A DNA stretch of 64,000 nt from Pseudoalteromonas sp. A25 (GTDB lineage: Bacteria > Pseudomonadota > Gammaproteobacteria > Enterobacterales > Alteromonadaceae). Below the pieces are notes generated by a model. It did no database searches. It had not been told where the DNA came from and saw nothing but the letters and a program-made list of their open reading frames with translations. The position numbers were made by a program, and so were the translations under genes. The stretch is taken from the NCBI RefSeq assembly GCF_009176705.1, contig NZ_AP021846.1, forward strand, positions 714,001-778,000, written 5' to 3'. Positions 2,598 through 38,269 of the stretch are shown here, piece after piece; the first letter of the stretch is position 1; each line of letters begins with the position of its first letter.

Positions 2598-5500
2598 ATG
2601 GAAACGGTAACGGGGCTAGAAGTTGCAATTGTCGGTATGGCTGCTCGGGTGCCTGGGGCAAACTCAATAGATGAATATTGGGAAAATTTGCTGGCAGGCA
2701 AAGATGTCCTAAAAATGCAGCAACAACGATATCCCGATCAAAGTGGTAATTTGGGCGGGGTATTAGACAATGTGCATGGCTTTGATGCGGCATTTTTTGA
2801 TGTTGCGGCACGCGAAGCCTGCTTAATGGACCCTCAGCTTCGACAAAGTTTAGAAGTTAGTTGGCATGCCTTAGAAGATGCTGGTTTGATTAACCAGCGC
2901 ACTGATGCGCATGTTGGCGTATATGCAGGCGCCCCAACCAGTGCTTATTTAACCTATGGTATTAGCAATAAAGATAAGTTAGACAGCGCGGTAGAAATTG
3001 ATGAGTTAATCCATCATAACTCGCAAGAGTTGTTTGCCAGCAAGCTTGCTTATCAGCTGGGGGTAAACGGACCTGCATTGTCGTTGACAACTGGGTGTTC
3101 CACGTCATTTGTGCTATTGCATTACGCGTGTTTAGCATTGAATAGTGGTGACTGTGAAACCGCGCTGGTGGTTGCCAGTCGTATTGGGTATCCCCATTAT
3201 GAAGGCTACACAGCAACGCCCGGTGGACCGCTTAGCCCTGATGGTTTATGTCGACCTTTTGCCAATAATGCGACTGGTATGGTGCCTGGTAGTGGCGCGT
3301 TGGCAGTGGTGCTTAAGCGCTATGAAGAGGCACTTGAAGATGGTGACCGCATTTATGCGGTGATAAGAGGCAGCGCACTGAACAATGATGGACGTGACAA
3401 GTTGGGCTTTGCGGCACCGTCGGTCAATGGTCAAACACACGTGGCTCAGCAAGCGATGATGAACGCCGACATTGAGCCGCATGACGTGTCTTATGTAGAG
3501 GCGCATGGCACAGGCACTGAGCTGGGCGACGGTGTTGAGTTAAGAGCACTGCAACAAGCCTATGGTCAAACTATGCCAAGCCAATCTTGTGCACTGGGGT
3601 CGGTTAAAGGCAACATTGGCCATCTCGATGCGGCATCGGGCTTGGCTAGTTTGGTTAAAGTGAGCTTGATGCTACACCATCGCACATTGCTGCCCACCAT
3701 TAATTGTGAAGCGCCGCTTGAGCAATTAAATGCACCAAGCAGTGCGTTTTACGTGCAACGAGAGGCCGAGCCTTGGCCTGAGTCTAAAGCGTTGATTGCT
3801 GGGTTGAACATTTTTGGGATCGGCGGCACGAATGGTCATGTGCTATTACAAGGTGCCAACGCGACTCATTCAACAGCGACAGAAAACAAAAATCATGTTT
3901 TATTTTTAAGTGGCAAAGACCCACAAGCGGTGTTGCGTAATAGAGATGCTTTATGTGCTTGGCTGCGCAAACACCCACACTGTAACTTAAAACAATTAAG
4001 TTGGACTTTACTCAATTGCAAAGAGCCGATGCGTTATCGCAGCGCAGTCAGTGTCTCATCTTTGCAGCAGTTGCAAGCGCTCAAGGCATTGTCTGACAAC
4101 GATATATCCAAAGCAGAACCATCACCTACGCTTGGTATTGAGGCGATTACGAGCGAGCAGTTGATCATCTTGGAGCGGTTATTTGAGCGCGATGAAACAC
4201 TTAACTGGCAATTTAAACAGCACCTTTGTGAGTCTGGGGCGCAATTAGATGCGATAAGTAAGTCGGCGTCAATGTGGCACGAGTTACGAATAAAAGTAGA
4301 AGAAAGCGAAACAATCAATAATTTGCTGAACCGCGCGGTTTGGCTGAGTGTGTTATCGCATTTATCACACATGGGGATAGAGTTTAAAAGTATCCAAGCG
4401 TCGGGTGTGATGTTTATCACAGTTGCTGAATTGGCTGGGGTGTTAACATCAACACAAGCACTGGGTTTACTCCATAATAAAAGCATCGAAAATGCGCAAA
4501 ATTTGCCTAATAGTGCTCGTTATGCACTGGCTTGTAATGACTCGGTTGAGCCAGTAACCGCGCAACATTGGCAGCAAGAAGCGTTTTGGCAAGCATTATG
4601 TGACGCTCGAGAAAACACGCGCGTAACTTCTTCATCATGTCATACATTAACTTTAGAAACTGATTTATATGCCATGGCAGCACAGCTTTGGATGCAAGGT
4701 GTGACGATTGATAGCCAAGCGCACTTCAACGAACAGTTAGCGCCCTTATCTGTGCCGGGATATGCTTTTGCAACAACACGCTATAAGTTACCTTTGCATA
4801 CAAAACAAAGCACGCTTTGGCGCGCGCAGCAGTGGCTCAAAGTTGTGCCGCAAAAGCAGCAAAATCACATTTTACTGTTGATGCCAAAGGGAGAGGCCGC
4901 CAACAAAGTGCAGCGCTGTGTTAGCGCCAACGACACGCACTTGTGGTTTATCTATCAGGCAGATCAGTTTAGCGCAGCAAATGACAATGTACTGTTTGGC
5001 GATTTAACGCAAGTTGCGCATTTGCAGCGCATAGAAGCGCATGTAAAACATATTGTTGATGCATCGTGTTGCTGGGTTGATGCTCGGTTGAGTGATATCT
5101 CGCCAAAATTTGATGGCCTGTTAAATGCGATGGTGGACAGCGAGCTACGTCGCAGTTGGCAAGCGCTTGATATCCATCTGCTGCGTGATAGTAAGCGATG
5201 GTCACTTCTGTACATAGCATCGAGTGAGGCGGCTTATCAAAGCAATGCGCTAATGGGGCAGTATTTACTCGATTTCTTCTTGCACAGTTATCAAGATTTG
5301 GCATTACAGCAAGCGCCAAAAACTGTGTGGTGTGCAGCACCAAAGGGCGCATTTAAACGCACAGGTAAAGAAACTGTTAGCGGCTCTTTGTTAAGCCAGG
5401 TGGCAAACAGCAAAGCTGAGCAGTTTAAAATCATGCATAAGCAACTCTTTTGCTCTACCTACACGCCGTTTAAACCCACAGCAAAGGCAGCCACTGGCGA

Positions 5501-6458
5501 TAGTAAAGTTGTGTTATTAGGAATTGAACAAGCCAATGGGGTGGCAATCGCGTCAGCCTTGCCAGCATTGTGTGACAAGGTTCATGTGGTGTTACCGCAA
5601 GATTTTCCTGCGCAAACAGCATGGCAGCAATGGTTATCGGCGCATGTTGAGGGAAATTTGTATAGCAAAATCATTGTGCTGCTTAGCGGTTGGCTTAAAG
5701 AAGGGGTTCGTTGTTCTTGGCATATTGATAATAAAGCGAATCGACCTTTGCACAAACAGCTTGCGTTGCTCGACAGTGACATATGCATCAATTTATTGGG
5801 CACCGATAACGCATTAAGTCAGCCAGATATTTTGCTATCACATTTAGAGCGACAACAAGCAACTGGCCAGTTGCTAACAAAGTTAATGTCAAAGAACCCA
5901 CTAGTAAGTTCGCTGGTATTATTGCAAGGCCCCTGTCCAGCTGGCTTAACAAGTGGTGCGCAATTGTGGCATCACACATCTAGCCAGGCATTTTCAAGTA
6001 TTATTTTTGCCAATAAGGAGCTAAGTCCTGATGATGTGGCAGAGTGTCTTAACGCTTTAGCTTATCCTACACACAAAGTGCTTATTGATGACATGTTAGT
6101 CAGCAGTGTTTCGTCTGCCTCGTTAGTTAAGCAGGCCCAACAATGCAATGAGCAGCAATATGCGCCTCGACCCGAGTTGGCACAGCCTTTCTGTGAGCCG
6201 GTAAGTGCGCTTGAACAGCAAATTGCGCAGATCTGGCAAAGCTATTTTTATTTAGCACCGATTGGTCGTGATGACGATTTTTTTGACTTACATGGACATT
6301 CTTTACTCGCGCTCAAAATTGTCAATCGTATTAATGCGCAATGTGCAACGCAGCTTACTTTACAAGATGTACTTGAAAACCCAACGATTGCTAGGCTCAG
6401 TGAGTTAGTCAAAATCAACATGCCTGTGCAACAAAAGGAGCGTAGTGATGAGTATTAG
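2598..6458 (+). CDS. Modular polyketide synthase KS-AT(degenerate)-KR(degenerate)-ACP
   Basis: The 1286-residue protein begins with a ketosynthase (about 8-420) with the full triad: Cys167 in TTGCSTS, His303 in EAHGTGT and His342 in GNIGHLDAASG. An acyltransferase-like region follows, but its GHSxG site aligns with ASGVM near residue 603, so the catalytic Ser is missing. The flanking AT landmarks MGIEFKSI, AGVLTSTQAL and the post-AT linker LWMQGVTID (about 697) are still visible. A KR-like region starts near 975 (VVLLGIEQANGVAIA) but lacks the glycine-rich nucleotide motif and a recognisable Ser-Tyr-Asn triad. The protein ends in a carrier domain, HGHSLLAL (Ser1235). Zeamine and fabclavine loci encode a comparable KS-AT-KR-ACP protein, so this looks like that protein with decayed AT and KR. 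If it extends a chain, malonyl must come from another AT. The downstream C gene overlaps its stop. Confidence 0.9.
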   Translation: METVTGLEVAIVGMAARVPGANSIDEYWENLLAGKDVLKMQQQRYPDQSGNLGGVLDNVHGFDAAFFDVAAREACLMDPQLRQSLEVSWHALEDAGLINQRTDAHVGVYAGAPTSAYLTYGISNKDKLDSAVEIDELIHHNSQELFASKLAYQLGVNGPALSLTTGCSTSFVLLHYACLALNSGDCETALVVASRIGYPHYEGYTATPGGPLSPDGLCRPFANNATGMVPGSGALAVVLKRYEEALEDGDRIYAVIRGSALNNDGRDKLGFAAPSVNGQTHVAQQAMMNADIEPHDVSYVEAHGTGTELGDGVELRALQQAYGQTMPSQSCALGSVKGNIGHLDAASGLASLVKVSLMLHHRTLLPTINCEAPLEQLNAPSSAFYVQREAEPWPESKALIAGLNIFGIGGTNGHVLLQGANATHSTATENKNHVLFLSGKDPQAVLRNRDALCAWLRKHPHCNLKQLSWTLLNCKEPMRYRSAVSVSSLQQLQALKALSDNDISKAEPSPTLGIEAITSEQLIILERLFERDETLNWQFKQHLCESGAQLDAISKSASMWHELRIKVEESETINNLLNRAVWLSVLSHLSHMGIEFKSIQASGVMFITVAELAGVLTSTQALGLLHNKSIENAQNLPNSARYALACNDSVEPVTAQHWQQEAFWQALCDARENTRVTSSSCHTLTLETDLYAMAAQLWMQGVTIDSQAHFNEQLAPLSVPGYAFATTRYKLPLHTKQSTLWRAQQWLKVVPQKQQNHILLLMPKGEAANKVQRCVSANDTHLWFIYQADQFSAANDNVLFGDLTQVAHLQRIEAHVKHIVDASCCWVDARLSDISPKFDGLLNAMVDSELRRSWQALDIHLLRDSKRWSLLYIASSEAAYQSNALMGQYLLDFFLHSYQDLALQQAPKTVWCAAPKGAFKRTGKETVSGSLLSQVANSKAEQFKIMHKQLFCSTYTPFKPTAKAATGDSKVVLLGIEQANGVAIASALPALCDKVHVVLPQDFPAQTAWQQWLSAHVEGNLYSKIIVLLSGWLKEGVRCSWHIDNKANRPLHKQLALLDSDICINLLGTDNALSQPDILLSHLERQQATGQLLTKLMSKNPLVSSLVLLQGPCPAGLTSGAQLWHHTSSQAFSSIIFANKELSPDDVAECLNALAYPTHKVLIDDMLVSSVSSASLVKQAQQCNEQQYAPRPELAQPFCEPVSALEQQIAQIWQSYFYLAPIGRDDDFFDLHGHSLLALKIVNRINAQCATQLTLQDVLENPTIARLSELVKINMPVQQKERSDEY

Positions 6459-7953
6459 TATTGAGAACAACAGGCAGGTTTTACCACTTACTAATGGGCA
6501 ACTCAGTTTTTGGTTTATTTACCACATGACCAAAGAAACGGCGAATCACTTCTTACCTTATGAGTTTGAAGGGCCGTTACGAGCAGACTTCTTGGAGCGT
6601 GTGCTCAACGTTTTGTTGCAAGATAACGAGATCCTCCGTTCATCTATAAGTGACTGGTGCGCCGTACAATATATTCATCCTTATGAGTACTTTCACTTAC
6701 CCTATGAAGATTTAAGCGGTATGTGTGAGCAAGGCAGAGCAGCCGCTTTGGGTGCGCTATTTTTAAAATATAGTGCCCCTAATTTTGATTTAATGAAAGC
6801 GCCGCTATTGCGAGCGTGTTTGGTTAAAACGGCCCCAGAGAAACATTTACTTATGTTGGTAACCCCTCACTTCGCAATGGACGGCGCGGCGCTTTATCAA
6901 ATGGACAATGAGTTGCGGTCGTTGTATCAAAAAGCGCTGCAAGGGCAGCCCTTAAGGACGAGCCGAAAGTTAGGGTTGGCTGAATATGTGACGCAAGAGC
7001 AATCCATTCGCAGTGCTCAAAGTCAACAGGCGAGTGCCTTTTGGCAGCAACAGCTGGGTAAAACCAAACCGACTTATTTAGCGTCCGATTTATTGGATAT
7101 CAGCAATCGTTCGCGGCGTGGCATTTTTATCCCATTGAATGACGCTCAGTTGCAAGTGATTGGACGTTGGTGCTCTAAACACAAGCTAACACAGCAGATG
7201 GTGTTTTTAGCATTGATTGGCAAAGTGATGGCTAAAGTTTCTGGCAATCACAGTTTATGTTTAACAACGGTGCAAGAAAACCGCGATATTGACGGTGCGC
7301 GTGAGCTATTTGGCGCGCTACTCACTTCTTTACCCATACCGCTGCAGATCACCGAGAAACAATCTCTTACTGAGTTGTTTTTACAAGTTAAACAGACAAC
7401 GCTTGCGGTATATGAATATCGTCACGTGCCTTGGAGTGTACCTTTATCTATGCTAGCTCGTAGCAAACTGAAGAAGCAACCTTGGTGGCTAAAGGCAATA
7501 AGCAAAGTAAGTGGATGGTATCACCGTATCAGCAAACAAGCAGGGTTGTATCCACAGGCGCTTATGGATTTTGCTGCAATTGCCGCCAGTGATATGGCAG
7601 AAGATAAAAAAATAGCCCGGTTTGGGCCTCAGCATCAAGCGCTGACTATTAATGTAAATATGTTGCCTTCATTTTACGAACACGCAGCGCAGGTGCAATC
7701 TACTGAGCAAAGTGAACAAGCGTGTGAAATTACTTTGCGCCGTGAGTTAGATTTCCCAGTCCCCCAAGATGATAGCGAATGGGAGCAGAATGTACTGAAC
7801 TTTTACATTGAAAAACATGCACTTAAAGGTTTTGGGATCCGCCTTTCTCATCAGTGTTTGACACCTCACGCAGAGCAGATTTTACGTGACGAGTTGTATG
7901 GACTGTTGTTGCAAAGCTCGGATGTGGCATCGCCGTTAGTACAAGAAGCTTAA
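6448..7953 (+). CDS. Stand-alone condensation-domain protein (probable amide-forming release enzyme)
   Basis: A free-standing NRPS C domain of 501 residues. ATG 6448 is preferred over GTG 6445 because AAAAGGAG ends 7 nt before it; the start overlaps the PKS stop. The active site reads PHFAMDGAA, so catalytic His141 and Asp145 are present and the first His of HHxxxDG is Pro. The paralogous terminal C domain of the second NRPS (10282-17514) has the closely similar PHIIFDGAA, and the two also share ENR and ALL..LPI patterns and a tail of the form Y-P-x-x-L. In zeamine and fabclavine loci a stand-alone C protein is thought to join the peptide-ketide thioester to an amine of the polyamine. By position, directly after the carrier-terminated PKS, I infer the same role. 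A decayed or acceptor-swapped C domain is the alternative. Confidence 0.88.
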   Translation: MSISIENNRQVLPLTNGQLSFWFIYHMTKETANHFLPYEFEGPLRADFLERVLNVLLQDNEILRSSISDWCAVQYIHPYEYFHLPYEDLSGMCEQGRAAALGALFLKYSAPNFDLMKAPLLRACLVKTAPEKHLLMLVTPHFAMDGAALYQMDNELRSLYQKALQGQPLRTSRKLGLAEYVTQEQSIRSAQSQQASAFWQQQLGKTKPTYLASDLLDISNRSRRGIFIPLNDAQLQVIGRWCSKHKLTQQMVFLALIGKVMAKVSGNHSLCLTTVQENRDIDGARELFGALLTSLPIPLQITEKQSLTELFLQVKQTTLAVYEYRHVPWSVPLSMLARSKLKKQPWWLKAISKVSGWYHRISKQAGLYPQALMDFAAIAASDMAEDKKIARFGPQHQALTINVNMLPSFYEHAAQVQSTEQSEQACEITLRRELDFPVPQDDSEWEQNVLNFYIEKHALKGFGIRLSHQCLTPHAEQILRDELYGLLLQSSDVASPLVQEA

Positions 7954-8026
7954 TGTCCTTTGGTAAGGCTTTGTAAGCAAGTGGCTATTTTTGCAATGAT
8001 TCGATTGACCTAAAATGGGGAAAATT

Positions 8027-8083
8027 TATACTCGATATGCTTGAAATAGCATCGGGCTGTACGTCACATCGATGTTGAGTATA
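8027..8083. repeat. Imperfect inverted repeat in the leader of the first hydrolase gene
   Basis: In the 155-bp gap between the C gene and the hydrolase gene, TATACTC at 8027-8033 pairs with GAGTATA at 8077-8083, with partial pairing further in. It ends about 25 nt before the ATG. It could be an RNA hairpin in the 5' leader or an operator. No T-run follows, so a terminator is unlikely. Evidence is limited to the symmetry. Confidence 0.3.
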
Positions 8084-8108
8084 AAAAGAACGGAATGAGA
8101 ATATCGTA

Positions 8109-9167
8109 ATGCACTCAATAATAAAAATCGCCATCGCGTTTTTAATTGCTTTGCTTGTCGCTGTTATGTGGCTTTCAAGCTACGAGCGATATGCAATTAA
8201 ATTCGTCAGCCAACAAGATAGTTTGTATGGCTCTTTGGTACTGCCTAAGCAAAGTACTGAGCAGCCAGTGCCCGTGGTGATTTTTGTACATGGTGATGGG
8301 CCTATATCCAGTGGTAGCTATGGCTATTATCATCCGCTTTGGCAGGCCCTTGCTGATGCAGGGGTCGCCTCGTTATCTTGGGATAAACAAGGTGTTGGTG
8401 GATCTGAAGGTCATTGGCTAGGCCTTAACATGGAGCAACGCGCTGATGCACTTAGCGCAGCCATTGATTGGATATCGCAACAACCACACTTAGATAGTGA
8501 GCGTATTGGGGTGATTGGCTTTTCACAAGCCGGCTGGGTTATCCCGCAGGTTTTGGCCAAAGATGAGCGACTCAAATACGCCATTATGGTATCTACGGCG
8601 GTTAATTGGGTGCAGCAGGGCCATTTTCAAACGGTTCAGCGATTAAAGTCTCAAGGTCAAGAAGGGGCGTTACTTGCGCAAAACCTCGATTTTAACTCAG
8701 CCTTAGATGCGCTTTTAAAGCAAGGTGTTTCCTACAAAGCTTACCAACAATTTATGGCGCAAAATGCGCCCGAGAGTTATGGCGCTAAGGTGATGAATAA
8801 AGTGCGCTACGAGTTTGTGGTTAACAACATGCTTGTTGATGCCAGTGCTTCGCTGACGAAAATACAACAACCGGTATTGGCATTATTTGGCGACTCGGAC
8901 GCAGTGGTAGATGTAAACCACAGCATTAGTACTTATCAACGAAGTTTGTCAGGCCCTTTTAGCTACAAAGTGTATGAAAATGCCGATCATGGCATATTTA
9001 AAAACGCGTATTTTTCTGATATCCGCAAAGACTCAATTTGGTTTGGCGTCAAAATGAATTGGTTAGGAGCTAAGGGGTTCTCTGATCAATTTATTGATGA
9101 TGTGCTCAATTGGGTAACGACGCACACTCAAGCAGAAACACTAGGAGTAAACAATAATGACCGATAA
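8109..9167 (+). CDS. Membrane-anchored alpha/beta hydrolase (copy 1)
   Basis: This 352-residue protein has an uncleaved-looking N-terminal membrane segment (about 5-24), which predicts a hydrolase domain on the periplasmic side. The fold markers are FVHGDGP (oxyanion region), the nucleophile elbow GFSQAGW (Ser139), an acidic residue in FGDSDAV (Asp262 or Asp264) and His294 in ENADHG. The motifs resemble dienelactone-hydrolase and acyl-peptide-hydrolase-like enzymes. The zeamine locus encodes an acyl-peptide hydrolase that trims the pre-product, so a product-maturing peptidase or amidase is a reasonable inference. A release thioesterase is less likely because of the membrane anchor. The 3' end overlaps the next membrane gene by 11 nt. 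The gene is paralogous to 17508-18629, with matching GYYxPLWQ, SWDKxGVGGS and GFSQAGWVxPK/Q motifs. Confidence 0.85.
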   Translation: MHSIIKIAIAFLIALLVAVMWLSSYERYAIKFVSQQDSLYGSLVLPKQSTEQPVPVVIFVHGDGPISSGSYGYYHPLWQALADAGVASLSWDKQGVGGSEGHWLGLNMEQRADALSAAIDWISQQPHLDSERIGVIGFSQAGWVIPQVLAKDERLKYAIMVSTAVNWVQQGHFQTVQRLKSQGQEGALLAQNLDFNSALDALLKQGVSYKAYQQFMAQNAPESYGAKVMNKVRYEFVVNNMLVDASASLTKIQQPVLALFGDSDAVVDVNHSISTYQRSLSGPFSYKVYENADHGIFKNAYFSDIRKDSIWFGVKMNWLGAKGFSDQFIDDVLNWVTTHTQAETLGVNNNDR

Positions 9168-10161
9168 CTTTAGCAGCTGGTTTACCAAGCAGCGTGAAGA
9201 CTTGTTATGGGATTTATTATTTTCAAGCGTATTAGAAGTGCTTGCGATGTTTGCGGTGATGTTGCTTATTTCCCCCTATTTTGAAACGTTAAACTCGTTT
9301 TGGTATGGGTTTTTCTTGGTGTTGATCCCTTTGTATATATTTTCCGAGGCGGCGGCTGTTTTGGCTAAGTTAAAAATAGCAACACAAAAACAGCTGAGCG
9401 AATTAAGCGGTGTGGATATTTCGTCAATCAGTGTGGCTCCCATTAATCACCAATGGCAGTGTGTCACTATCAAAACGGCGGTTCTGGCGTTACTACCAGC
9501 GCTTGGTTGTGTGGCGTTATATTATTTTAGTTCAAAAAGTGTTGGCATCATGCTGCTTATTGCACTGTGCGCCGCAGTTGCTGTGTTTATTGGTAGTGCA
9601 TTGTTGTTTGAACGTTATGCCAAGTCATTGGTTGCTGGCACCTTGTTGCAAGCACAAAGTAAAGACTCACTCAACGAATCTCAAAGTATCGACTTTTTAG
9701 TAACGTATCATTTGTTGCCTTGGCTGGTATTTACCACATTGGTATTTGGTTTGCTAATGAGCAAATATTACATGGGTTATGTTGCTGATGCCGGTCAAAT
9801 TAGCCTGTCGAGCTTAGCAACATATAGTTATGTCAGCTGTACCTTTGTTGGCTTTTGGAGCTGCTACAACGTGCTAGAGTCGATGCAAGTAGAGTTTAAG
9901 TTACAGTCTATGTACTTGTCTGGTGTTGATAAATTCTCTCACTCAGAGCTATTTGGCATGATTTTAGGTGCGGGCTTTGTTCCTTGGGTCGCGCTGTTTG
10001 TCACAGGCTTTTTTGTGCCGACCTTAACCAGCGGCCTTTGGCTTACGGTCATAGCCACTAGTGTTATTGTTTTTGCCGTTGTTGTGGGGGTGAGTGCAGC
10101 GGCACTATTTGCATACAGTCAATTACAAGAGCAGAGGCAAGCGGAGTCTTGCTCACAATAA
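9157..10161 (+). CDS. Eight-TM membrane protein of unknown family (copy 1)
   Basis: I do not recognise this 334-residue family. The sequence shows about eight hydrophobic segments (near 17-42, 47-66, 105-123, 128-150, 183-205, 215-235, 262-285 and 293-318). The start overlaps the hydrolase gene by 11 nt, behind a CTAGGAG ribosome site, so the two are translationally coupled. A paralogue of exactly the same length (334 residues) lies at 18626-19630, in the same position after the second hydrolase. Shared patterns are QSID followed by HLLPW (about 176-190), KYYxG and SGxxxxSxSExF near 255. The constant pairing suggests a partner for the hydrolase, such as a membrane scaffold, permease or immunity factor. 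The function itself is unknown. Confidence 0.8.
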   Translation: MTDNFSSWFTKQREDLLWDLLFSSVLEVLAMFAVMLLISPYFETLNSFWYGFFLVLIPLYIFSEAAAVLAKLKIATQKQLSELSGVDISSISVAPINHQWQCVTIKTAVLALLPALGCVALYYFSSKSVGIMLLIALCAAVAVFIGSALLFERYAKSLVAGTLLQAQSKDSLNESQSIDFLVTYHLLPWLVFTTLVFGLLMSKYYMGYVADAGQISLSSLATYSYVSCTFVGFWSCYNVLESMQVEFKLQSMYLSGVDKFSHSELFGMILGAGFVPWVALFVTGFFVPTLTSGLWLTVIATSVIVFAVVVGVSAAALFAYSQLQEQRQAESCSQ

Positions 10162-10281
10162 TGTATTTTTGTTAATCGCATGAATGGGGTAAAGATAAAA
10201 CCACCATACATGCGAATGTATTTATGAATTTATTTATAAATTAAACGTAGCTGAGCGTTACAGTAGTATAAGGATGTTGTT

Positions 10282-13200
10282 ATGAGTATCACCTTTTGGC
10301 AAAACCAGTTCGTTGATCTTGATGCTTTGAGTGTTGCGGATCCGTGTGAAGATGAAGCACACATTGCGGCATATGGTGATAGTCACGCTGTTAATTTAAG
10401 CGATAAAGAAGTGCTTTCAATTAGGCAGTTGTTGGTGCAAACGAATCGTTGTTTGCGTACGGTGCTGGTGCTTAACTATTATCTCACTTTAAGGGTTTTG
10501 TCGGCACAAACTCGGTTTGCCATTGGTATAAACTACACGCATCCTCAGTCGCCTTTAAAGTACAGTCCACTTGTATGTGACTTGCCTATGGATATCAGCG
10601 TCGGGCAGGCACTAGAGAACTTAGAAAAGCTCGAAAGCAGGGTATTTAAACACAGTGCAAGAGCGACAGAAAAAGCGCTTTTACAAGCTGCGAATGCTGC
10701 GGGTGTCGAGTCACTTTATCAAGCAACCTTGAGTGTATTACACGACCCATTGCCAGTGCAGAGCAACGATTGTTGGCAAATACAAGCTGTTGAGCAAGGT
10801 GAGGCTATTGATATTCAGATAGTTTGTCCGACTCAATATAGCCAATCAGGCTTAGCGTTGTTTGCGAGTTGTTTTGCACAGACATTGCACAGTTTAGTGA
10901 GCTGCCCAGAGCAATGTTTGGCAGAAATTAATTGTGTAGCGCATGAGCAACAGAGCAAGCTACTTAAAGATTGGCAAGGTAATATTGTTAATTGGCCGCA
11001 AAGTGACACATTGGTGAGCCAACTAGAGCGCTCGGCTTCACTGTGGCCGCACCGTACTGCGGTTATTTTTCAAAACCAATCGATCAGCTACCAGCAATTG
11101 CATCAGCAAGCCGATAAACTCGCAAGCTACATTTGTAGCGAACTCAGCAAAAACCGCTCAGCACACCAGTTTGATGGGCAAAGCATCGTGGCGCTGCTGA
11201 TGGATAAAAGCGTAGATATGGTGATTGCTATTCTCGCTGTGCTGAAGGCGGGCGCGGCTTATGTGCCGATTTCGCCTAAGTTCCCTGCTCAGCGACGTCA
11301 ATTTATACTCGAAGATACACGCAGTGCATTGGTGTTAACTCAATCACATTATCTGCAGTGGATAGATGGCGAACGTTACCAATCATTAGCACTGGATAGT
11401 GCGGATTTTTGGAGCTGTATTCAGGCTAGCCAGGTGTCTACAACAGCTCATCCAGAGCAGTTAGCTTATGTGATGTACACTTCGGGTACAACAGGGCAGC
11501 CTAAAGGAGTCATGATAAGCCATAAAAGTGTGGTTAATTTGATTAACTGTCAGCGCCAAGCGTTTGCCTTTTCTGAGCAAGATACATCAATTTGGCTAGC
11601 CAACTATATTTTTGATGTATCTGTAGAGCACTTTTTCTTAACGCTAACGAGTGGCGCTTGTTTGGTTGTGCCAACTGAGCAGCAGATAGCGGAACCCAGT
11701 TGTATTAAATCATTGTTGCAAAAAGAAAAGGTCACCCACTTTGAAGCAACCCCGACTTATCTAAGCGCCATGGGCGCGCTTGAGGCCCCATATTTAAAAA
11801 CAGTGATCACCGGTGGGGAGGCGTGTACCAAAGATGTACAAATGCTTTGGCAAGCAAAGTTAGTTAATGGGTATGGTGTGACCGAAGCAACGGTAACGCA
11901 AACTCAACGGATTGGTAGAACCGATACTGGGCGCATGAATAATATCGGCAAACCACTGGCTAACACGCAAATATATATTTTGTCGCAGAACTTAAAGCTG
12001 CTACCCATTGGCGCACCAGGAGACTTGTATATCGGCGGTGCTGGGTTGGCACAAGGCTACCTAAACCGCCCAGAGCTAAACCAAGAAAAATTCATAGCCA
12101 ATCCTTTTACAGTGCAAAGTGACAGCGCTAACTTTTCTAATATTTTATATAAAACCGGCGATAGAGCACGTTGGCTGGAAAATGGTGATATTGAGTATCT
12201 TGGTCGTGAAGACTTTCAGGTAAAAATTCGTGGATACCGTATTGAACTGGGTGAAATTGAAGCGGTTATAACTGCGCAGCCGGAAATCGAAAGTGCCGCT
12301 GTAATTGACCGACTACGTGGACAAATCAAGTATTTGGCTGCTTATTATGTGCTTAAAGCTGGTTGTTGCTTAGACAGTAAGCAGCTCAAAGCACGTTTAA
12401 AGCAGACGTTACCAGAGTATATGGTACCTACCACTTACACAGTTGTTGAGCATATTCCAATCACAATAAATGGTAAATTAGATAGACGAGCTCTGCCTGA
12501 ACCACAGCACAGCACTGAAGCGCACATTGCACAGCCCACAAGCGAATTAGAAGTACAACTTAAATCATTGTGGCTGCAAGTATTGTCATTACCAGAAATT
12601 GGTATTCACGAAGACTTTTTTGCACAAGGAGGTGACTCGATCACTGCGCTTAAGCTATTGGGCCTATGCCAACAGCAGTTTTCCACAGCGTTATCGTTGG
12701 CTCAGTTGTATCAACACCCTACGATTGCGTTGTTGGCACAGCAACTTAGCCAAACGAGCAGCGTGGTAGAGATCCCGCGTGCCAGCGGGCAAAAATTGTC
12801 CTATGCACAGCAGCGCATGTTGTTTATCGAGCAGTTTGAAGGAGGCACGGATGCTTATCACCTGCCATTTTTTACCCAATTAACTGACGATGCTGATTTA
12901 GCATTGTTAGAACAAGCCATACAGCAGCTGTGCGAGCGTCATCCTGTGTTGAATAGTTGCTATTGTCACGCTGAAGATATCGTACGTGCTGAGTTAAAAG
13001 AAGTCACATACCCAATACACATCGCACGCATAGAACTTGACAGTGAACAGTTGCTCGTAGCGAGAGTGAATGAAGACTATCAGCGACCTTTTAATTTGCA
13101 AAACACAGCGCCAATGCGAGTATTTTGTTATCAGGTGCACCAGCAGCGGTTCTTGTTTATTGTCTGGCACCATATTGCCTTCGATGGTTGGTCAGAGCCG

Positions 13201-16200
13201 TTGTTTTTTAATGAACTGGCATTGATTTATCATGCGCTACAAACCGCATCAGAGGCAAAGCTGCCAGAATTGCCAATTTGTTATAGTGACTATGCGCAAT
13301 TTCAACACAGCGAACAACAACAGCAATTGATGCAGCAACAGCTCGCTTATTGGCAACGTCAGTTAGCAGGGTGTGAGCCGCTGGCATTGACAACCGACTT
13401 TCCTCGTCCTGCAAAATTTGATTATCAAGGAGCAACACATGCATTTGCAATTGAGCCGAATTTAACCAGGCAATTAAGGTGTATTGCATCTGCAAACAAG
13501 ACAACTTTATATACGGTGATGATGGCATGTGCGTTTGCTACCTTTTATGGTCAAACAGGCCAAAATGATATAATAATCGGCACGCCGACAGATAATCGTC
13601 ATTTGCCGCAAACCCATTCGTTGATTGGCTTTTTTGTTAATAGCTTGGCGCTGCGGCTCACTATGTCGCAAGACATGTCGCTGCTGGATTTAATTCGCCA
13701 GCTTCATCATGTGATCATGCAAGCAAAACAAAATCAAGACGTGCCATTTGAGCAGGTGGTGCAGGCGCTCTGCGATACTAGAGATACCGCTCGTCATCCC
13801 CTTTTTCAAGTGATGTTTAGTGTGGTGCCACCCGATAATACCAATGAACACGGTTTATTGCCTTTTGCCAGCAAAGGTGAGGTGGTGGAAATACAAGAGT
13901 CGGCGAAGTTTGACTTAGACATCGCAGTGACCGATCACAATACGCATCTAACCGGTAAATTGGTATATAGCAAGTCACTGTTTTGTGAGCTGCGAATGCA
14001 ATGGTTAGTGCAAAGCTACTTAGATGTGTTGGGGCAGTTCGCGGATGATCTGAGTATTGAGTTACAACAACTTAATTGGTTGCCACAAGCGCATACACAA
14101 CAATTAATAAGTTGGAATACCACACAATCACCATACCCAAAAAATACATCATTGTCGCAGCAAATAGATGATACTGCAGCACAACGGGCCGATGCCATTG
14201 CGCTGTGTTTTGGTGATACCCAAGTGACTTATGCACAGATGACTAAGTGGGTTACGACACTTGCGCTACAGATCCGTGAGCAGTATCAGAAAAGCTATGG
14301 GGTAGCGCTCAGTGCGAATACGTTTGTTGCGCTGCAGTTTGATAAAAGTATTGAAATGGTTATCGCGATTTTGGCTGTATTGAAGGCCGGGGGGGCATAT
14401 GTTCCCCTATCGCCTGATTTTCCAGCGCAAAGACGCCAGTTTATTCTTGAAGATACACAAGCCGCTTTGCTGTTGTGTACGCAAGATCACCAAGCGGCAT
14501 TGGCCAGTACATCAGTGCCCATTATACCTGTTAGCTGTGCCGCGCTTGAAAAAGCGGATTGCATCGAGCAATTTGATTTAACATGTCAAGCAAGTGATTT
14601 GGCCTATGTGATCTACACATCAGGTACGACGGGTAACCCAAAAGGAGTGATGCTTACGCACGAAAACGTGACGGTTTTAGTTGCATCGCAAACTCAAGCT
14701 TTTGATTTTAGTGCAAATGAACGCGTGCTGTGGCTGGCAAATTATATTTTTGATGTCTCTGTTGAGCATTTATTTTTGACCCTTATCAATGGCGCTTGCT
14801 TGGTTATACCCAGTCAATCTCATATTGTGCAGCCTGATCTGATCCGTACCATGCTCGTTGAGCAAAAAATTACACATTTTGAAGCAACCCCGACTTACTT
14901 AAGTGCACTGGGTAAAGTCTCATCGGTGTTTTTAAAAAGAGTGATCACCGGTGGTGAAGCATGTACTGCTGAGGTTGCCCAGTTTTGGGGCGACTTACTA
15001 ATCAATAGTTATGGGGTGACTGAAGCTACCGTAACTCAGCTGCAAAAATTGGAGAAAACGCCATTTGATAGTATCCAAAATCTGGGTAAGCCATTAGCCA
15101 ATACCCAGCTATTTATTTTGAATGAGCAAGGTAAGCTTGCCCCTTTGGGGGCGATCGGCGAACTTGTGGTTGCCGGGGAGCTGGTGGCGCAGGGGTATTT
15201 AAATCGCCCAGAACTTAACGAGCAGCGTTTTGTTAGCCAGTTTTCTTACACTAATAGCGATGACTTAGAAGCACTCAAAGCCTATAAAACGGGTGATCTG
15301 GCTAGGTGGCTACCCAGTGGTGAGATTGAATATCATGGCCGCAATGACTTTCAAGTAAAGATCAGAGGATATCGTATCGAGCTTGGTGAGATAGAAGCGG
15401 CATTGTGTAAATTGCAGCAAGTGCAACAGGCCGTCGTTATTGAGGTGAACAATGGGCAAAACCCATTTTTAGCCGCTTACATTGTGCCTACAGCTGAGCA
15501 TAACTGTGATGAAGGAGCGATACTTGCACAGCTTTCTGAGCAGCTCCCCAGTTATATGGTACCAAGCACCCTTACCTTGGTGGCGAGTATTGCACAAACT
15601 TTAAATGGTAAAGTAGATAGAAAAGCGCTGCCGAAACCTGCATATCAGATGAAAACGCAGACTATTGCGCCACGTAATGAGTTAGAACACAGCCTATACG
15701 AAATTTGGCAGCAGATCCTAAATGCGGATAGCTTTGGCGTGACAGATAACTTTTTTGCCTTGGGCGGACATTCGTTAAGTATTGCCAAACTCAAGGTGTT
15801 GATCAAAGACCGGCTAGATACCGAGGTTGAACTCAAAGCACTCTTTGACAACAGTACGATTGCAAAACAGGCAAAACTGCTGCGTTCACTTGAGGGGCAA
15901 GAAGCAGAACCGCGTGTGCAACAAGGCGTTACTTTGCCTGCGCTAACGACGCAAAAATGGCATGTAAATGAGTCTTTTCCGTTGTCTTACCAGCAGGTGG
16001 TATTTTGGCTAATTAACGATGCCAATATTGGTACTGTAAATAATACACAATGTATTGAAATTAAGTCGGTTATTGATGTAGCGTGCTTACAACAAGTATT
16101 ACAAAAACTGTGTACACACCACGACGCCTTGCAAGTTGAGATTGACTTGAAAAAGCCTTTGCAAAAAATGCGTGACAGCGTTGCGCCTATAAATTTGCAA

Positions 16201-17514
16201 ATAATTGATTGCCAAAATAAAACACCAAGCCAATTAGCCCAAGTCTATGACACATTAGAAAGGGTCCGTATAGAGCCTTTTGATTTAACCAATCCGCCGC
16301 TGTTGGTTGCGTATTTATTGCAGTTTTCATCGGATGAACATGTGCTTTTCTTGTGCGCACCACATATTATTTTTGATGGTGCCGCCCTGACGATTTTTGC
16401 GCGACATATCGAGCAATGTTACTTCAGCACGCTTAAAAACCAGAAGTGGCCTTTATCACTCAATAACGCTGGCTTGAGAGATTTTGTGTACTGGGAGCGA
16501 GCCGCCTACCACGCTTGCCAAGATGATATTACTGCGTTTTGGCAAAGTGCATTGCAAGGTCTTCACTACCCAGTATTTCCACCGCATTATCAAGCTGAGC
16601 AGTTACAGTTGCAAACGGCTTTAGTGAGCTTAAGTGAAGTGCAGCTGGATAAACTTAAAAATTATGCGCAGCTACATGGTGCTAGCATACAAATGCTCTT
16701 GAATACTTTGATTGGTATGAGTTTATCTGAGGTTACTTCAAACTCAGAGTTTTGCATAACTCATGTGATGGAGAACCGCTACGATGCACAGATGAGCGAC
16801 CTCATCGCGCTATTGGCTGGCGAAAGTGCGTTGCCTATTCGGGTATCTCAAGCACGCAGTGTTGCGAAGTTACTCAAAAGTGTTAAGCAGCACACCATTG
16901 CGGCACTTGAATATCCGGTGATCTCTTCGGTTATGCTCGATGCCATCATAGAGCAAGGCCGCTGGCAAGAGGTGCCCAGCTTTTACAAGTGGATGCTTAG
17001 GGCTGGAAGTCGCTTGTTCAGTTGGTACTTTAAATCGGCGCAAATTTACCCTGATTATTTGCAAGAAATGATGGCTGTGGATGATATCCCTAAATGGATC
17101 CGAAAGCTGATGACAGAACAGCGCCAAAGCCAAACTTATCGGGGATTTCGTGAAGCGCCACCGATTTCAGTCAATATTTTGCAGGATTTTGCTCAAGTGC
17201 AAGCAACCAGCGAATTGCAAACTTGGCATCATGATGCATCGGTCACAAAGACTTTAGAGCAGTATTGTGATGAGTCTTTGCAACTAGAAGAGCAAATCAA
17301 TGAGTGTGATAACGCAATTTGGGGGGCTACGCTTGAATTTGAGTGTACGCGAAGTGATACGCGACAGCCTTGTATAAAAATAAGCGCTCGTAGCTTAAAC
17401 CGCGATGCATTGGATGCCTTAAGGTGTGAGCTTGCATTACAAATAGAGGCACTTTGTCAGGAAAGTAGTACCTGCCTGCCAGCGAATGAAAAGAAAGAGG
17501 AGCACAAATGTTAA
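10282..17514 (+). CDS. Two-module nonribosomal peptide synthetase with terminal C domain (partial C-A-PCP-C-A-PCP-C)
   Basis: A 2410-residue NRPS. Residues 1-235 resemble only the C-terminal lobe of a C domain, with no HHxxxDG. A1 (about 245-745) has TSGTTGQPKG near 400 and the pocket segment FDVSVEH (Asp445). PCP1 has GGDSI (Ser786). The internal C domain has an intact HHIAFDGW (His963, His964). A2 (about 1280-1775) has FDVSVEH (Asp1491). PCP2 has GGHSL (Ser1831). The terminal C domain has PHIIFDGAA (His2028). By hand alignment to GrsA the pockets read D-V-E-E-I-G-G-V-T-K and D-V-E-E-I-G-S-V-T-K. Two acidic pocket residues suggest a basic amino acid such as ornithine in both modules. There is no thioesterase, so release by the terminal C domain onto an amine is inferred. 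The stop overlaps the next hydrolase start (ATGTTAA). Confidence 0.93.
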   Translation: MSITFWQNQFVDLDALSVADPCEDEAHIAAYGDSHAVNLSDKEVLSIRQLLVQTNRCLRTVLVLNYYLTLRVLSAQTRFAIGINYTHPQSPLKYSPLVCDLPMDISVGQALENLEKLESRVFKHSARATEKALLQAANAAGVESLYQATLSVLHDPLPVQSNDCWQIQAVEQGEAIDIQIVCPTQYSQSGLALFASCFAQTLHSLVSCPEQCLAEINCVAHEQQSKLLKDWQGNIVNWPQSDTLVSQLERSASLWPHRTAVIFQNQSISYQQLHQQADKLASYICSELSKNRSAHQFDGQSIVALLMDKSVDMVIAILAVLKAGAAYVPISPKFPAQRRQFILEDTRSALVLTQSHYLQWIDGERYQSLALDSADFWSCIQASQVSTTAHPEQLAYVMYTSGTTGQPKGVMISHKSVVNLINCQRQAFAFSEQDTSIWLANYIFDVSVEHFFLTLTSGACLVVPTEQQIAEPSCIKSLLQKEKVTHFEATPTYLSAMGALEAPYLKTVITGGEACTKDVQMLWQAKLVNGYGVTEATVTQTQRIGRTDTGRMNNIGKPLANTQIYILSQNLKLLPIGAPGDLYIGGAGLAQGYLNRPELNQEKFIANPFTVQSDSANFSNILYKTGDRARWLENGDIEYLGREDFQVKIRGYRIELGEIEAVITAQPEIESAAVIDRLRGQIKYLAAYYVLKAGCCLDSKQLKARLKQTLPEYMVPTTYTVVEHIPITINGKLDRRALPEPQHSTEAHIAQPTSELEVQLKSLWLQVLSLPEIGIHEDFFAQGGDSITALKLLGLCQQQFSTALSLAQLYQHPTIALLAQQLSQTSSVVEIPRASGQKLSYAQQRMLFIEQFEGGTDAYHLPFFTQLTDDADLALLEQAIQQLCERHPVLNSCYCHAEDIVRAELKEVTYPIHIARIELDSEQLLVARVNEDYQRPFNLQNTAPMRVFCYQVHQQRFLFIVWHHIAFDGWSEPLFFNELALIYHALQTASEAKLPELPICYSDYAQFQHSEQQQQLMQQQLAYWQRQLAGCEPLALTTDFPRPAKFDYQGATHAFAIEPNLTRQLRCIASANKTTLYTVMMACAFATFYGQTGQNDIIIGTPTDNRHLPQTHSLIGFFVNSLALRLTMSQDMSLLDLIRQLHHVIMQAKQNQDVPFEQVVQALCDTRDTARHPLFQVMFSVVPPDNTNEHGLLPFASKGEVVEIQESAKFDLDIAVTDHNTHLTGKLVYSKSLFCELRMQWLVQSYLDVLGQFADDLSIELQQLNWLPQAHTQQLISWNTTQSPYPKNTSLSQQIDDTAAQRADAIALCFGDTQVTYAQMTKWVTTLALQIREQYQKSYGVALSANTFVALQFDKSIEMVIAILAVLKAGGAYVPLSPDFPAQRRQFILEDTQAALLLCTQDHQAALASTSVPIIPVSCAALEKADCIEQFDLTCQASDLAYVIYTSGTTGNPKGVMLTHENVTVLVASQTQAFDFSANERVLWLANYIFDVSVEHLFLTLINGACLVIPSQSHIVQPDLIRTMLVEQKITHFEATPTYLSALGKVSSVFLKRVITGGEACTAEVAQFWGDLLINSYGVTEATVTQLQKLEKTPFDSIQNLGKPLANTQLFILNEQGKLAPLGAIGELVVAGELVAQGYLNRPELNEQRFVSQFSYTNSDDLEALKAYKTGDLARWLPSGEIEYHGRNDFQVKIRGYRIELGEIEAALCKLQQVQQAVVIEVNNGQNPFLAAYIVPTAEHNCDEGAILAQLSEQLPSYMVPSTLTLVASIAQTLNGKVDRKALPKPAYQMKTQTIAPRNELEHSLYEIWQQILNADSFGVTDNFFALGGHSLSIAKLKVLIKDRLDTEVELKALFDNSTIAKQAKLLRSLEGQEAEPRVQQGVTLPALTTQKWHVNESFPLSYQQVVFWLINDANIGTVNNTQCIEIKSVIDVACLQQVLQKLCTHHDALQVEIDLKKPLQKMRDSVAPINLQIIDCQNKTPSQLAQVYDTLERVRIEPFDLTNPPLLVAYLLQFSSDEHVLFLCAPHIIFDGAALTIFARHIEQCYFSTLKNQKWPLSLNNAGLRDFVYWERAAYHACQDDITAFWQSALQGLHYPVFPPHYQAEQLQLQTALVSLSEVQLDKLKNYAQLHGASIQMLLNTLIGMSLSEVTSNSEFCITHVMENRYDAQMSDLIALLAGESALPIRVSQARSVAKLLKSVKQHTIAALEYPVISSVMLDAIIEQGRWQEVPSFYKWMLRAGSRLFSWYFKSAQIYPDYLQEMMAVDDIPKWIRKLMTEQRQSQTYRGFREAPPISVNILQDFAQVQATSELQTWHHDASVTKTLEQYCDESLQLEEQINECDNAIWGATLEFECTRSDTRQPCIKISARSLNRDALDALRCELALQIEALCQESSTCLPANEKKEEHKC

Positions 17515-18629
17515 GGAAAGATAATGGGGTGAGATTGAACGATAAGGGGGGTGATGTGTATGCGCGTTGGAGCTTATACGTGGCGATAGTCGGCCTTGTT
17601 TTGATTTTGCTTGTGATGCTCGACCGTGCTCCGTATGAGAAGTTAGCGCAAGACTTTACAGTTGCAAACTCAACTCGTGCTGGTTCGTTAATATTACCAA
17701 CCAATATCGAAACGCCTCGCGCTGTGATGATATTTGTACACGGTGATGGTGCTATGGGACGCAGTGCTTTTGGGTATTACTACCCGCTGTGGCAACGATT
17801 CGCCAAACAAGGGATCGCCTCATACTCTTGGGACAAAGCAGGAGTTGGCGGCTCCGACGGCAACTGGCTTAACCAAGATATGCAAAGTCGCGCCCAAGAA
17901 ATAGATGAAGCCATTGCGAAGGTGCGTCAGCAAGCGTTGCTCAAAGACGTTCCAATAGGATTGATTGGCTTTTCACAAGCTGGGTGGGTCATGCCCAAAG
18001 CACTAAAAGAATCTTCTCAAATCGCATTTGCTGTTTTTGTATCTACGCCCGTGAACTGGTTAAAACAAAGCGAGTTTTTAACACAGGTGAGGCTACAAAG
18101 AGAGGGGGTTGATGGTGATGAGAAGCAACAACACATGACCCAAGCACAACAGATCTCCATGTTGATAGCACAAGGTGAAAACCACAGCGCATACTTAGAC
18201 TATTTAGCGCAAACAGACCCCGATGCGGTCGGATCCGCAATGAGCCCTGAGCGCTATCAATTTGTGCAAAAGAATATTCTTGCTGACTCGCAACAGGATT
18301 TAGCGCAGGTTACACAGCCGCTATTTGTTGCTTTTGGTGAGCATGATAGCAATGTCAATGTGCCCTATAACGTACAGCAATATCAGCACATATTTGCCAA
18401 TCGAGCTGCGCAGTTACAGCTTAATGTCTATCAAAATGCAAACCACACAATGCTGAAAAATAGTGAGTTCGGACACCTATCTCCCTCGTTATGGTGGCTA
18501 ATAAAAATGTCGTTATGGGAAGAAGATGGCTTTTCAGAGCCGTTTGTGGAAGACGTTACTTTGTGGCTCAACACACAGTTAACGCAGTTAGCCTCGCAAC
18601 AAACTCAACAATTAGGAGCTGCACAATGA
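17508..18629 (+). CDS. Membrane-anchored alpha/beta hydrolase (copy 2)
   Basis: Paralogue of the protein at 8109-9167, 373 residues. It has a short charged N-terminus and one membrane segment at about 21-40. The catalytic features are FVHGDGAMG, the elbow GFSQAGWVMP (Ser156), an acidic residue in FGEHDSN and His313 in NANHTM. The start overlaps the NRPS stop by 7 nt and the end overlaps the next membrane gene (ATGA), so the gene is translationally coupled on both sides. By its place after a terminal C domain, I infer that it trims or activates the product of the second peptide line outside the cytoplasm. Divergence from copy 1 is substantial, so the duplication is not recent and the two may act on different peptides. 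Confidence 0.85.
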   Translation: MLRKDNGVRLNDKGGDVYARWSLYVAIVGLVLILLVMLDRAPYEKLAQDFTVANSTRAGSLILPTNIETPRAVMIFVHGDGAMGRSAFGYYYPLWQRFAKQGIASYSWDKAGVGGSDGNWLNQDMQSRAQEIDEAIAKVRQQALLKDVPIGLIGFSQAGWVMPKALKESSQIAFAVFVSTPVNWLKQSEFLTQVRLQREGVDGDEKQQHMTQAQQISMLIAQGENHSAYLDYLAQTDPDAVGSAMSPERYQFVQKNILADSQQDLAQVTQPLFVAFGEHDSNVNVPYNVQQYQHIFANRAAQLQLNVYQNANHTMLKNSEFGHLSPSLWWLIKMSLWEEDGFSEPFVEDVTLWLNTQLTQLASQQTQQLGAAQ

Positions 18630-19630
18630 ATCAAGTGACAGAGTTAGTTCGTTCACAATCTCCAGGTTACGTCATGCGAACATTGTTGCTTGGCGTATTC
18701 GAAGTTGCTGTTGTTGCGCTATTGTTTTTGTTTACCAAGCCATATTTTGAGTCTTATCAGGTATTTTGGTATTTACTCTGTCTGATACTTGTTCCTGCGT
18801 GCGCATGCTCTGTGGCTGTCAATGTGCTGACAAAAATTGCATCGCAAGTTCTGATTGCAGCCAAAAAAAACAACATACATGTAGAAGAAGGCGAGTACAG
18901 CACCTTAGCTACTTCAGCTTGGCAATATATTAGTTGGAAGAAAGTATTGATGATGGTGAGTACAGGAGCTGTGATAGCGCTTTGCTACAGTGAAAGTACA
19001 CAGACTTTTAGCGATTTATTACTTTTGTTTGGTGCTATCACGATTGCTACGTTTGTGTTTGCAAATTGGATGGTTACTCAAGCTGCAATGCCACTTTGTT
19101 TGGCAGTGATAAGCGCATATAGGCATCGCCGTGATCCCTTAACAGAAGCACAAAGCATCGACCATATTATCCGTTTTCATTTGTTACCATGGAGTGCGAT
19201 TGCCGTTGCCACGCTGTTCACATTCTTTGTGAAATATTACTTAGGTTTGGCTGATGAGCATGGTTATGTTGAAACAGGAACTGTGGTGAAAAGCACGTAT
19301 ATATCGGGCGCTATTGTGGCTCTTTGGCTATGGCTAGAAGTCGGGCAAATCGCACGACTAGAACATATTTTGGGGCATATTAATCTTAGCGGAATAGGTC
19401 ATATGTCGGACTCAGAAGCATTTAGCTTGGTTATGGCCGTACCGATTGTACTGGCTGTCGTTATTGCGGCTGTAAATGGCTTTTTTGATATTGAACAGTA
19501 TCGCTATCAGAGTGCGATTGCTATTAGCATGTTTTCGATGTTTTTGGCTGCGCTTGCTGGCGTTTGCATTGCGATTATTAAGCTATGTGCGAGTAAAGCG
19601 CTAAGCGATTCATTATTTGAAAACACGTGA
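18626..19630 (+). CDS. Eight-TM membrane protein of unknown family (copy 2)
   Basis: The open frame extends back to 18491, but ATG 18626 follows TTAGGAGCT, overlaps the hydrolase stop as ATGA and gives 334 residues, exactly the length of copy 1 (9157-10161). Shared patterns are KPYFES.QVFWY against SPYFET.NSFWY near the N-terminus, QSID followed by HLLPW in mid-protein, KYYLG, and SGIGHMSDSEAF. About eight membrane segments are visible. No known catalytic motif is recognised. The gene is followed with a GTGA overlap by a frame whose better start is 19645. Function unknown; co-inheritance with the hydrolase suggests they work together. Confidence 0.8.
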   Translation: MNQVTELVRSQSPGYVMRTLLLGVFEVAVVALLFLFTKPYFESYQVFWYLLCLILVPACACSVAVNVLTKIASQVLIAAKKNNIHVEEGEYSTLATSAWQYISWKKVLMMVSTGAVIALCYSESTQTFSDLLLLFGAITIATFVFANWMVTQAAMPLCLAVISAYRHRRDPLTEAQSIDHIIRFHLLPWSAIAVATLFTFFVKYYLGLADEHGYVETGTVVKSTYISGAIVALWLWLEVGQIARLEHILGHINLSGIGHMSDSEAFSLVMAVPIVLAVVIAAVNGFFDIEQYRYQSAIAISMFSMFLAALAGVCIAIIKLCASKALSDSLFENT

Positions 19631-19644
19631 GAGACGGATCTAGG

Positions 19645-21742: not shown

Positions 21743-21863
21743 CGTTCCTGCGTAGTATTTTGATTTCGACTGGTTTGGGTGTTTATGCACTTAATTTAAA
21801 TGGTTTCGCAATCAAAAAAGGAATTTTTTGACTTCACTAATTTTTTTAAAAAGGACGAGTGAT

Positions 21864-36215: not shown

Positions 36216-36220
36216 TAAGC

Positions 36221-36988
36221 ATGATACAACAAATAGCAGTTGTTACAGGTGCTGCTGGTGGGTTTGGTGCGGCGATATGCCGCGCCTTACTCGCGTCAAA
36301 TTATACGGTAGCGGCTGTAGATTTGAATGAAGACAAATTGGCGTCACTTAAGCATTGGTTAGACGGTGATGAGCGCTTACTGACGTTTGTTATGGATGTG
36401 ACCGATGTGGATAGCGTGCAAGCGGTTTATGATCAATTAGCGCAGCGTGAGAACAGCACAATTACAGTGCTGGTTAACAATGCCGGGATATTGCATAAGG
36501 CGTTTTGTCTTAAAAAGGACTCTTTGGCCGCAGCGCAGCAAACATTTGATGTAAACCTCACTGGCGCATTTAATTGCACCACCATTTTTAGCCAAGCCAT
36601 GGTGAGGCAAAAGTATGGTCGGATCATCAATATAGGCTCGGTAGCCGGTATTTGGGGCTCTGGTGGCAGTGCCGCCTACGCTGCATCTAAAGCGGGTTTG
36701 ATTAAAGCATCAGAGTCGTGGGCTCAGGAGCTGGGGCCGATGAATATTTGTGTCACTTGTGTGGCACCAGGTATTTGTAAAACTCAGATGTTTAATCAAT
36801 TTCTTGAAAAAGAAAGCATCCCTGATGCTGAAGAAGCCAAGTTTGCACGCCGTACAGTACCCATCGGGCGCTTTGGAACGGCTGAAGATGTCGCTGAAGT
36901 CGTGCAGTTTTTAGCAACTTGTAAAACTAACTATCTCAATTCGGCCGTGATCACCGTGGATGGTGGCATGCGAGTTGGGGCCATGTAA
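36221..36988 (+). CDS. Short-chain dehydrogenase/reductase (FabG-like)
   Basis: A 255-residue classical SDR. ATG 36221 starts just before the nucleotide-binding motif TGAAGGFG, behind AAAGGA. NNAG, Ser in GSVAG and the YAASK catalytic pair are all present, so it should be active with NADPH or NADH. Zeamine-type loci have an SDR at this position between the aminotransferase protein and the thioester reductase. It may reduce keto groups on the polyamine chain or the aldehyde from the thioester reductase; which one cannot be decided from sequence. It starts 5 nt after the upstream stop and ends 41 nt before the next gene. Confidence 0.9.
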   Translation: MIQQIAVVTGAAGGFGAAICRALLASNYTVAAVDLNEDKLASLKHWLDGDERLLTFVMDVTDVDSVQAVYDQLAQRENSTITVLVNNAGILHKAFCLKKDSLAAAQQTFDVNLTGAFNCTTIFSQAMVRQKYGRIINIGSVAGIWGSGGSAAYAASKAGLIKASESWAQELGPMNICVTCVAPGICKTQMFNQFLEKESIPDAEEAKFARRTVPIGRFGTAEDVAEVVQFLATCKTNYLNSAVITVDGGMRVGAM

Positions 36989-38256: not shown

Positions 38257-38269
38257 GTGGAAGTTAAAT

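Follow-up and report, generated by a model that had tools for sequence, protein, structure and literature searches.

Two probably amine-acylating condensation domains and two hydrolase-membrane protein pairs in a probable zeamine/fabclavine-like cluster of Pseudoalteromonas

The best explanation that we can offer for the region is that a polyamine is acylated by two condensation (C) domains and that the product is then processed after assembly by a membrane module of two hydrolase-membrane protein (H-T) pairs and an acyltransferase; taken as a whole, we consider this account moderately likely. C1, a free-standing C domain, would act in trans at the end of a first, peptide-polyketide line and pass the acyl chain from its carrier to a polyamine amine; C2, the last domain of a separate dipeptide synthetase (NRPS2), would do likewise in cis. 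The polyamine would be made by the genes at 21828-39046, both acylations would occur in the cytoplasm, and the ABC exporter (39229) would carry the conjugate across the membrane. The H1-T1-H2-T2 genes and the acyltransferase gene, downstream of C1, would form one membrane module of the polyamine part of the pathway. Within it, T1 and T2, as duplicated proteins of the Zmn9 position, would act at the inner membrane by binding or moving the long polyamine chain; H1 and H2 would be the anchored periplasmic serine hydrolases of T1 and T2, trimming the acyl-peptide after export. The gene for NRPS2 and C2 would then be a separable addition inside the H-T module. We infer the topology and the substrate of the H proteins, the function of the T proteins and the existence of an H-T complex.

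The window, i.e. the whole stretch of 64,000 nucleotides that was analyzed, is from the genome of Pseudoalteromonas sp. A25, and its genes indicate that the region is probably part of a zeamine/fabclavine-like polyamine cluster. The peptide/polyketide/polyamine genes begin approximately 15 kb before the window and run to position 42916. They encode, in order, NRPSs of 4165 and 1677 aa, a PKS, C1, H1, T1, NRPS2 with C2, H2 and T2, followed by an acyltransferase-3, the Pfa-like synthase with the enoyl reductase-aminotransferase (ER-aminotransferase), a ketoreductase (KR), a thioester reductase (TR) and a carbon-nitrogen (C-N) hydrolase, and at the 3ʹ end an ABC exporter and a two-component system (Table 1). 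All six elements singled out in the initial annotation, a C domain, an anchored hydrolase and an 8-TM protein in two copies each, were recovered in their places.

Table 1. Features of the cluster within the window
Feature	Position	Strand	Remarks
1677-aa NRPS, 3ʹ part	1..2595	+	first peptide line; start upstream of window
PKS	2598..6458	+	first line; KS and ACP detected
C1, free-standing condensation domain protein	6445..7953	+	Zmn19/FclL-like; PHFAMDGAA; Pfam PF00668; tree clade
H1, membrane-anchored alpha/beta hydrolase	8109..9167	+	352 aa; S139-D264-H294
T1, 8-TM protein	9157..10161	+	334 aa; Zmn9-position family; 11-bp overlap with H1
NRPS2	10282..17514	+	2410 aa; weak partial C lobe-A-T-C-A-T-C2; second (dipeptide) line
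C2, C-terminal condensation domain of NRPS2	15958..17511	+	about 518 residues; PHIIFDGAA at residue 2027
H2, membrane-anchored alpha/beta hydrolase	17508..18629	+	second copy; 373 aa
T2, second T protein	18626..19630	+	ORF listed from 18491; 334-aa start at 18626
Acyltransferase-3 membrane protein	19627..20832	+	PF01757; MdoC-like
PfaA-like polyamine synthase subunit	21828..28619	+	KS-AT-ACP-KR
PfaC-like subunit	28603..33231	+	two KS stretches, FabA-like DH
Enoyl reductase-aminotransferase	33177..36215	+	Zmn12/FclE-like
Ketoreductase	36212..36988	+	
Thioester reductase	37030..38256	+	
Carbon-nitrogen hydrolase	38270..39046	+	Zmn15-like
ABC exporter	39229..40914	+	exceeds cut-off of TIGR01194 (cyclic peptide export)
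Response regulator and histidine kinase	40918..42916	+	

The combination of a Pfa-like synthase and aminotransferase with a stand-alone KR, a TR and a C-N hydrolase is a trait of zeamine and fabclavine clusters, and the ER-aminotransferase protein was 58% identical to its counterpart in G635, a genome of another genus of the order with a zeamine-type cluster. The PKS of the zeamine and fabclavine peptide lines is of the KS-AT-KR-ACP type, whereas in the PKS of the window Pfam detected KS and ACP parts, and neither AT nor KR in the approximately 700 residues between them; we therefore class the cluster as a variant and not as a member of this type. The 1677-aa NRPS was found to be C-A-T-C followed by about 166 residues without a Pfam match; with one A motif, it lacks the second-module A-T of the dimodular Zmn17 and thus does not contain two complete modules. 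The whole genome (4.7 Mb) has 55 condensation-domain matches, those outside the cluster lying in four further regions of one contig (labelled contig C1).

In searches for further clusters of this kind, the ER-aminotransferase query found 1/398 genomes of the phylum (the genome of the window itself), 3/394 of the order and, around G635, one of two genomes in its genus and one of 12 in its family; in the class sample, 18 of 369 genomes matched at E 1e-100, 17 of these 18 in the ER half only. A scan of contigs with the same protein gave four loci, all from Pseudoalteromonas. T is encoded in five of 108 genomes of the genus, with two copies each time, and all five also have the cluster, a distribution that speaks against the pair being common away from C-domain genes. 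These carriers are the genome of the window (G000), P. sp. S16_S37 (G035), P. caenipelagi JBTF-M23 (G066), P. sp. CIP111854 (G072) and P. aurantia S3788 (G064).

Each pair of copies was compared by local alignment and set against 200 shuffles. The identity was 25.7% for C1/C2 (score 329, shuffle maximum 59), 38.5% for H1/H2 (653, maximum 67) and 27.1% for T1/T2 (272, maximum 91, in a comparison that has to be read with the caveat that shuffling destroys hydropathy). The T proteins were also joined by a BLASTP match between T1 of one genome and T2 of another (about 285 residues, 28% identity, 88 bits), and conserved residues were spread through the T1 and T2 families alike. These alignments, which could have left the copies without significant similarity, place all three far above their shuffles, and by this evidence C1/C2, H1/H2 and T1/T2 are homologous pairs. 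The initial annotation also pointed to a length of exactly 334 residues for both T proteins. With the chosen starts this length is correct, but it is no constraint, as the relatives differ in size: 13 of 14 T matches have 331-346 aa, P0014 has 285 aa and looks incomplete, and the G635 homologue described below has 317 aa. There are at least 14 such matches, obtained by scoring 7993 word-sharing candidates in a search that missed the G635 homologue.

The relatedness of the C domains at the ends of both peptide lines was borne out by the C-domain tree as well. The C domain at the FclL position of G635 formed one clade with C1 and C2 among 44 C-domain rows (11 rows, 100/99), apart from the elongation C domains. 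Within this clade, C2 branched first and C1 paired with the G635 protein and not with C2 (97/89). The PHxxxDG motif with its second His was kept in C1 of all five genomes, in C2 of the three genomes having it and in the FclL-position protein of G635 (PHIIADGGA). Zmn19 is described as carrying PHxxxDG with Pro in place of the first His (PMC3547906), and FclL as coupling the peptide to the polyamine, for which its specificity is relaxed (PMC9113149). By motif and clade, both C1 and C2 thus look like chain-terminating, amine-acylating domains of the Zmn19/FclL type, in line with the earlier proposal that they release the peptide onto an amine. Of the two, C1 has the free-standing form of Zmn19, whereas C2 is fused to NRPS2 in 3/3 genomes. 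Under the best explanation, each of the two domains would couple a different peptide to the polyamine, where we infer the amine acceptor of C2.

NRPS2 has two modules and a weak C-domain fragment at its start, and this, together with the fused C2, suggests a dedicated dipeptide donor. Both of its A domains have identical pocket motifs (FDVSVE, FEATPT, ITGGE and YGVTEAT) and may load the same residue, presumably a basic one in view of two acidic pocket positions. For shortened fabclavines, assembly is reported to start alternatively at FclJ, which yields the dipeptide (PMC7214866), in contrast to the separate dipeptide synthetase of the window.

In the case of the T proteins, no Pfam or NCBIfam family was assigned to T1 or T2. 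The model of T1 had eight long helices (pLDDT 81, pTM 0.75), and a hydropathy scan gave seven segments past the threshold in T1 and six in T2. A link to a known system was found in G635, where a 317-aa ORF directly before pfaA matched the T profile over positions 16-324 with 48.5 bits, while the reversed sequence and 1000 shuffles gave at most 10.0 bits. When 26 membrane-like ORFs were scanned, including 10 T proteins and the one G635 ORF, the best of the other 15 scored 2.7 bits, and hhalign aligned T with the G635 protein at E 2.1e-6 and a probability of 89%. On these scores, T is distantly homologous to the membrane protein that G635 encodes immediately before its polyamine synthase. This G635 protein agrees in place and approximate size with Zmn9, a hypothetical protein of 331 aa encoded directly before zmn10 (PMC3547906), and the likeness drawn to Zmn9 is one of position and size. 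XIS1_460116, which adjoins an FclC homologue, is given as 43% identical to SerAS9_4283 (PMC5709968), a protein that, judged by tag order, would occupy the Zmn9 position; for that X. innexi cluster a tonB homologue, possibly the same gene, is mentioned (PMC7214866). A combined T/Zmn9-position profile matched 3/394 genomes of the order, and these are also the ones in which the ER-aminotransferase is encoded. Since the profile included rows of G000 and G635, its informative part is the absence of a match in the other 391 genomes, and the three matches represent two genera only. As T was found in the order only in genomes with the polyamine synthase, we consider that it goes with the polyamine and not with a peptide line.

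The occurrence of T with the polyamine synthase would also agree with a role in self-protection, with H1 and H2 inactivating any stray periplasmic or inner-membrane product and T1 and T2 as polyamine efflux permeases, meaning immunity and not maturation. The eight long helices predicted for T1 fit such a role, and Zmn9 is listed as a transport-related putative permease in a source which proposes transport genes for resistance (PMC4341552). However, a transposon mutant of zmn9 appears as zeamine-negative in the same source. This suggests a function in production, although polar effects on zmn10 are possible. Furthermore, the cluster already has an ABC exporter, and comparison of the T1 model with the PDB gave no convincing structural match and no recognised transporter fold, although a missing match shows little. 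We therefore regard self-protection as rather unlikely.

H1 and H2 belong to alpha/beta hydrolase families, with an intact Ser-Asp-His triad, and one N-terminal hydrophobic segment in each agrees with the membrane anchoring assigned to them initially. The catalytic residues were conserved in 34/34 (S139), 34/34 (D264) and 33/34 (H294) aligned H sequences, and the hydrolase motifs were intact in all 10 H proteins of the carriers. Distant single H relatives (E <= 1e-15) were found in 21/107 genomes of the genus besides the five carriers; at five loci from these genomes a lipoprotein-like signal was recognised by eye in each case, and no T match was found within 4 kb. A lipobox pattern was present in only one of the 34 aligned H relatives, so that the case for a periplasmic location comes from the N-terminal anchor and these five loci, which support, without proving, that the catalytic domains of H1 and H2 are periplasmic. 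In G635, no ORF matched H1 or H2 (blastp 1e-5, 75 kb); as its T-like protein is present, H appears to be dispensable for some T-like proteins.

The model of H1 (pLDDT 92) had esterases and lipases as its best structural matches, and with relatives that are mostly esterase-like, the fold alone does not favour peptide cleavage by H1 and H2. Alternatively, H1 and H2 could work with the acyltransferase-3 on the polyamino alcohol and determine its O- or N-acyl groups, as acyl esterases or transferases instead of peptidases. The acyltransferase gene, which directly follows T2 in 5/5 carriers, is compatible with this, but the H1 model also resembles acylaminoacyl peptidase structures (rank 37), and we consider this alternative quite unlikely. 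Periplasmic trimming by the H-T pairs and the acyltransferase is the probable function. XcnG of the xenocoumacin pathway is described in a similar role, the periplasmic trimming of a secreted precursor. XcnG and ClbP, membrane-bound prodrug peptidases with the job proposed here for H1 and H2, are beta-lactamase-fold peptidases with C-terminal TM helices, whereas H1 and H2 are not of the beta-lactamase type but alpha/beta hydrolases with one N-terminal hydrophobic segment.

The gene order of the carriers showed that the second peptide line is separable from the second H-T pair. G000, G035 and G066 share the order C1-H1-T1-NRPS2(C2)-H2-T2-acyltransferase. G072 and G064 have C1-H1-T1-H2-T2-acyltransferase; nothing of NRPS2 or C2 was found between their T1 and H2 (228 bp in G072, 319 bp in G064), and their H2 and T2 are 64-67% identical to the copies of the window. 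H2 and T2 can thus occur without the second peptide line, both H-T pairs being kept, adjacent to each other, in two of the five carriers. The proposal that C, H and T form a functional unit present once per peptide line does not hold for these two genomes. The C1 proteins of G072 and G064 and two metagenome sequences make up a single clade (99/99), and a single event of either kind, a gain of NRPS2-C2 in one lineage or a loss in the other, fits this. The H1 and T1 genes overlap by 11 bp in all five carriers, which suggests that H and T work together; the spacing of H2 and T2 ranges from 17 bp apart to an overlap of 4 bp (in G072 with a non-ATG start). The gene for the acyltransferase-3, which may modify the product, overlaps T2 in the window. 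pfaA follows the acyltransferase in the four carriers whose contig continues; the contig of G064 stops after the acyltransferase, and its ER-aminotransferase gene is on another contig.

The trees do not support one shared duplication of C and H. H1 grouped with P0030-P0032 (99/97) and not with H2, although one clade of H1 and H2 was not rejected by the AU test (p-AU 0.296), and long branches were flagged in both the C-domain and the H tree. Because the T family is tied to the polyamine synthase and C1 is nearer to the G635 protein than to C2, the three were probably not copied together. Duplication of C-H-T as a cassette, with each copy serving one peptide line, is very unlikely, in spite of the homology of all three pairs and the C, H and T that follow both lines in G000, given the two carriers with H2-T2 and no NRPS2-C2 and the placement of C1 and, less firmly, of H1. 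As an extension of the two acylations and the membrane module preferred here, each T might be a membrane polyamine receptor presenting the conjugate to its cognate H, the two forming a new kind of complex for maturation in the periplasm, and the polyamine of the three species that have NRPS2-C2 might bear two different peptides on one chain, via C1 in trans and C2 in cis; we consider this combination unlikely.

The zeamine clusters (Serratia plymuthica zmn and Dickeya zms) have, like the window, a Pfa-like polyamine synthase, aminotransferase, KR, TR, C-N hydrolase and an NRPS-PKS line, as well as a free-standing PHxxxDG C domain, Zmn19, corresponding to C1 (PMC3547906). The same source proposes that a single alpha/beta hydrolase, Zmn22, trims the peptide, and H1 and H2 resemble it by description. 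Unlike the zeamine clusters, the window has T twice, each time overlapping or near the gene of an anchored hydrolase and after a C domain, it has a second NRPS with an in-cis C domain of the Zmn19 type between the H-T pairs, and its PKS and 1677-aa NRPS are without domains present in Zmn17 and Zmn18. The fabclavine cluster (Xenorhabdus fcl) is similar in its FclL-type C domain, described as joining polyamine and peptide. The G635 cluster shares the set of polyamine, NRPS, PKS and C genes and the T homologue before pfaA, but has one T, no H match, one peptide line and ABC genes after the C domain.

Neither the H-T pairs nor NRPS2-C2 were found described in the open-access literature text searched, and a term search of the main text of a study mapping triple NRPS/PKS/polyamine hybrids found no Pseudoalteromonas (PMC13291983). 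By linking an uncharacterised membrane protein of the Zmn9 position with a partner hydrolase, the cluster makes the role of this protein testable. It also combines, in nature, a polyamine pathway and a second peptide line that ends in a terminal C domain of its own, and the three species with NRPS2-C2 and the two without provide a ready comparison for the contribution of the second line. For a further member of the genus, P. citrea S3895, the entry "zeamine (17%)" is given in PMC6581688.
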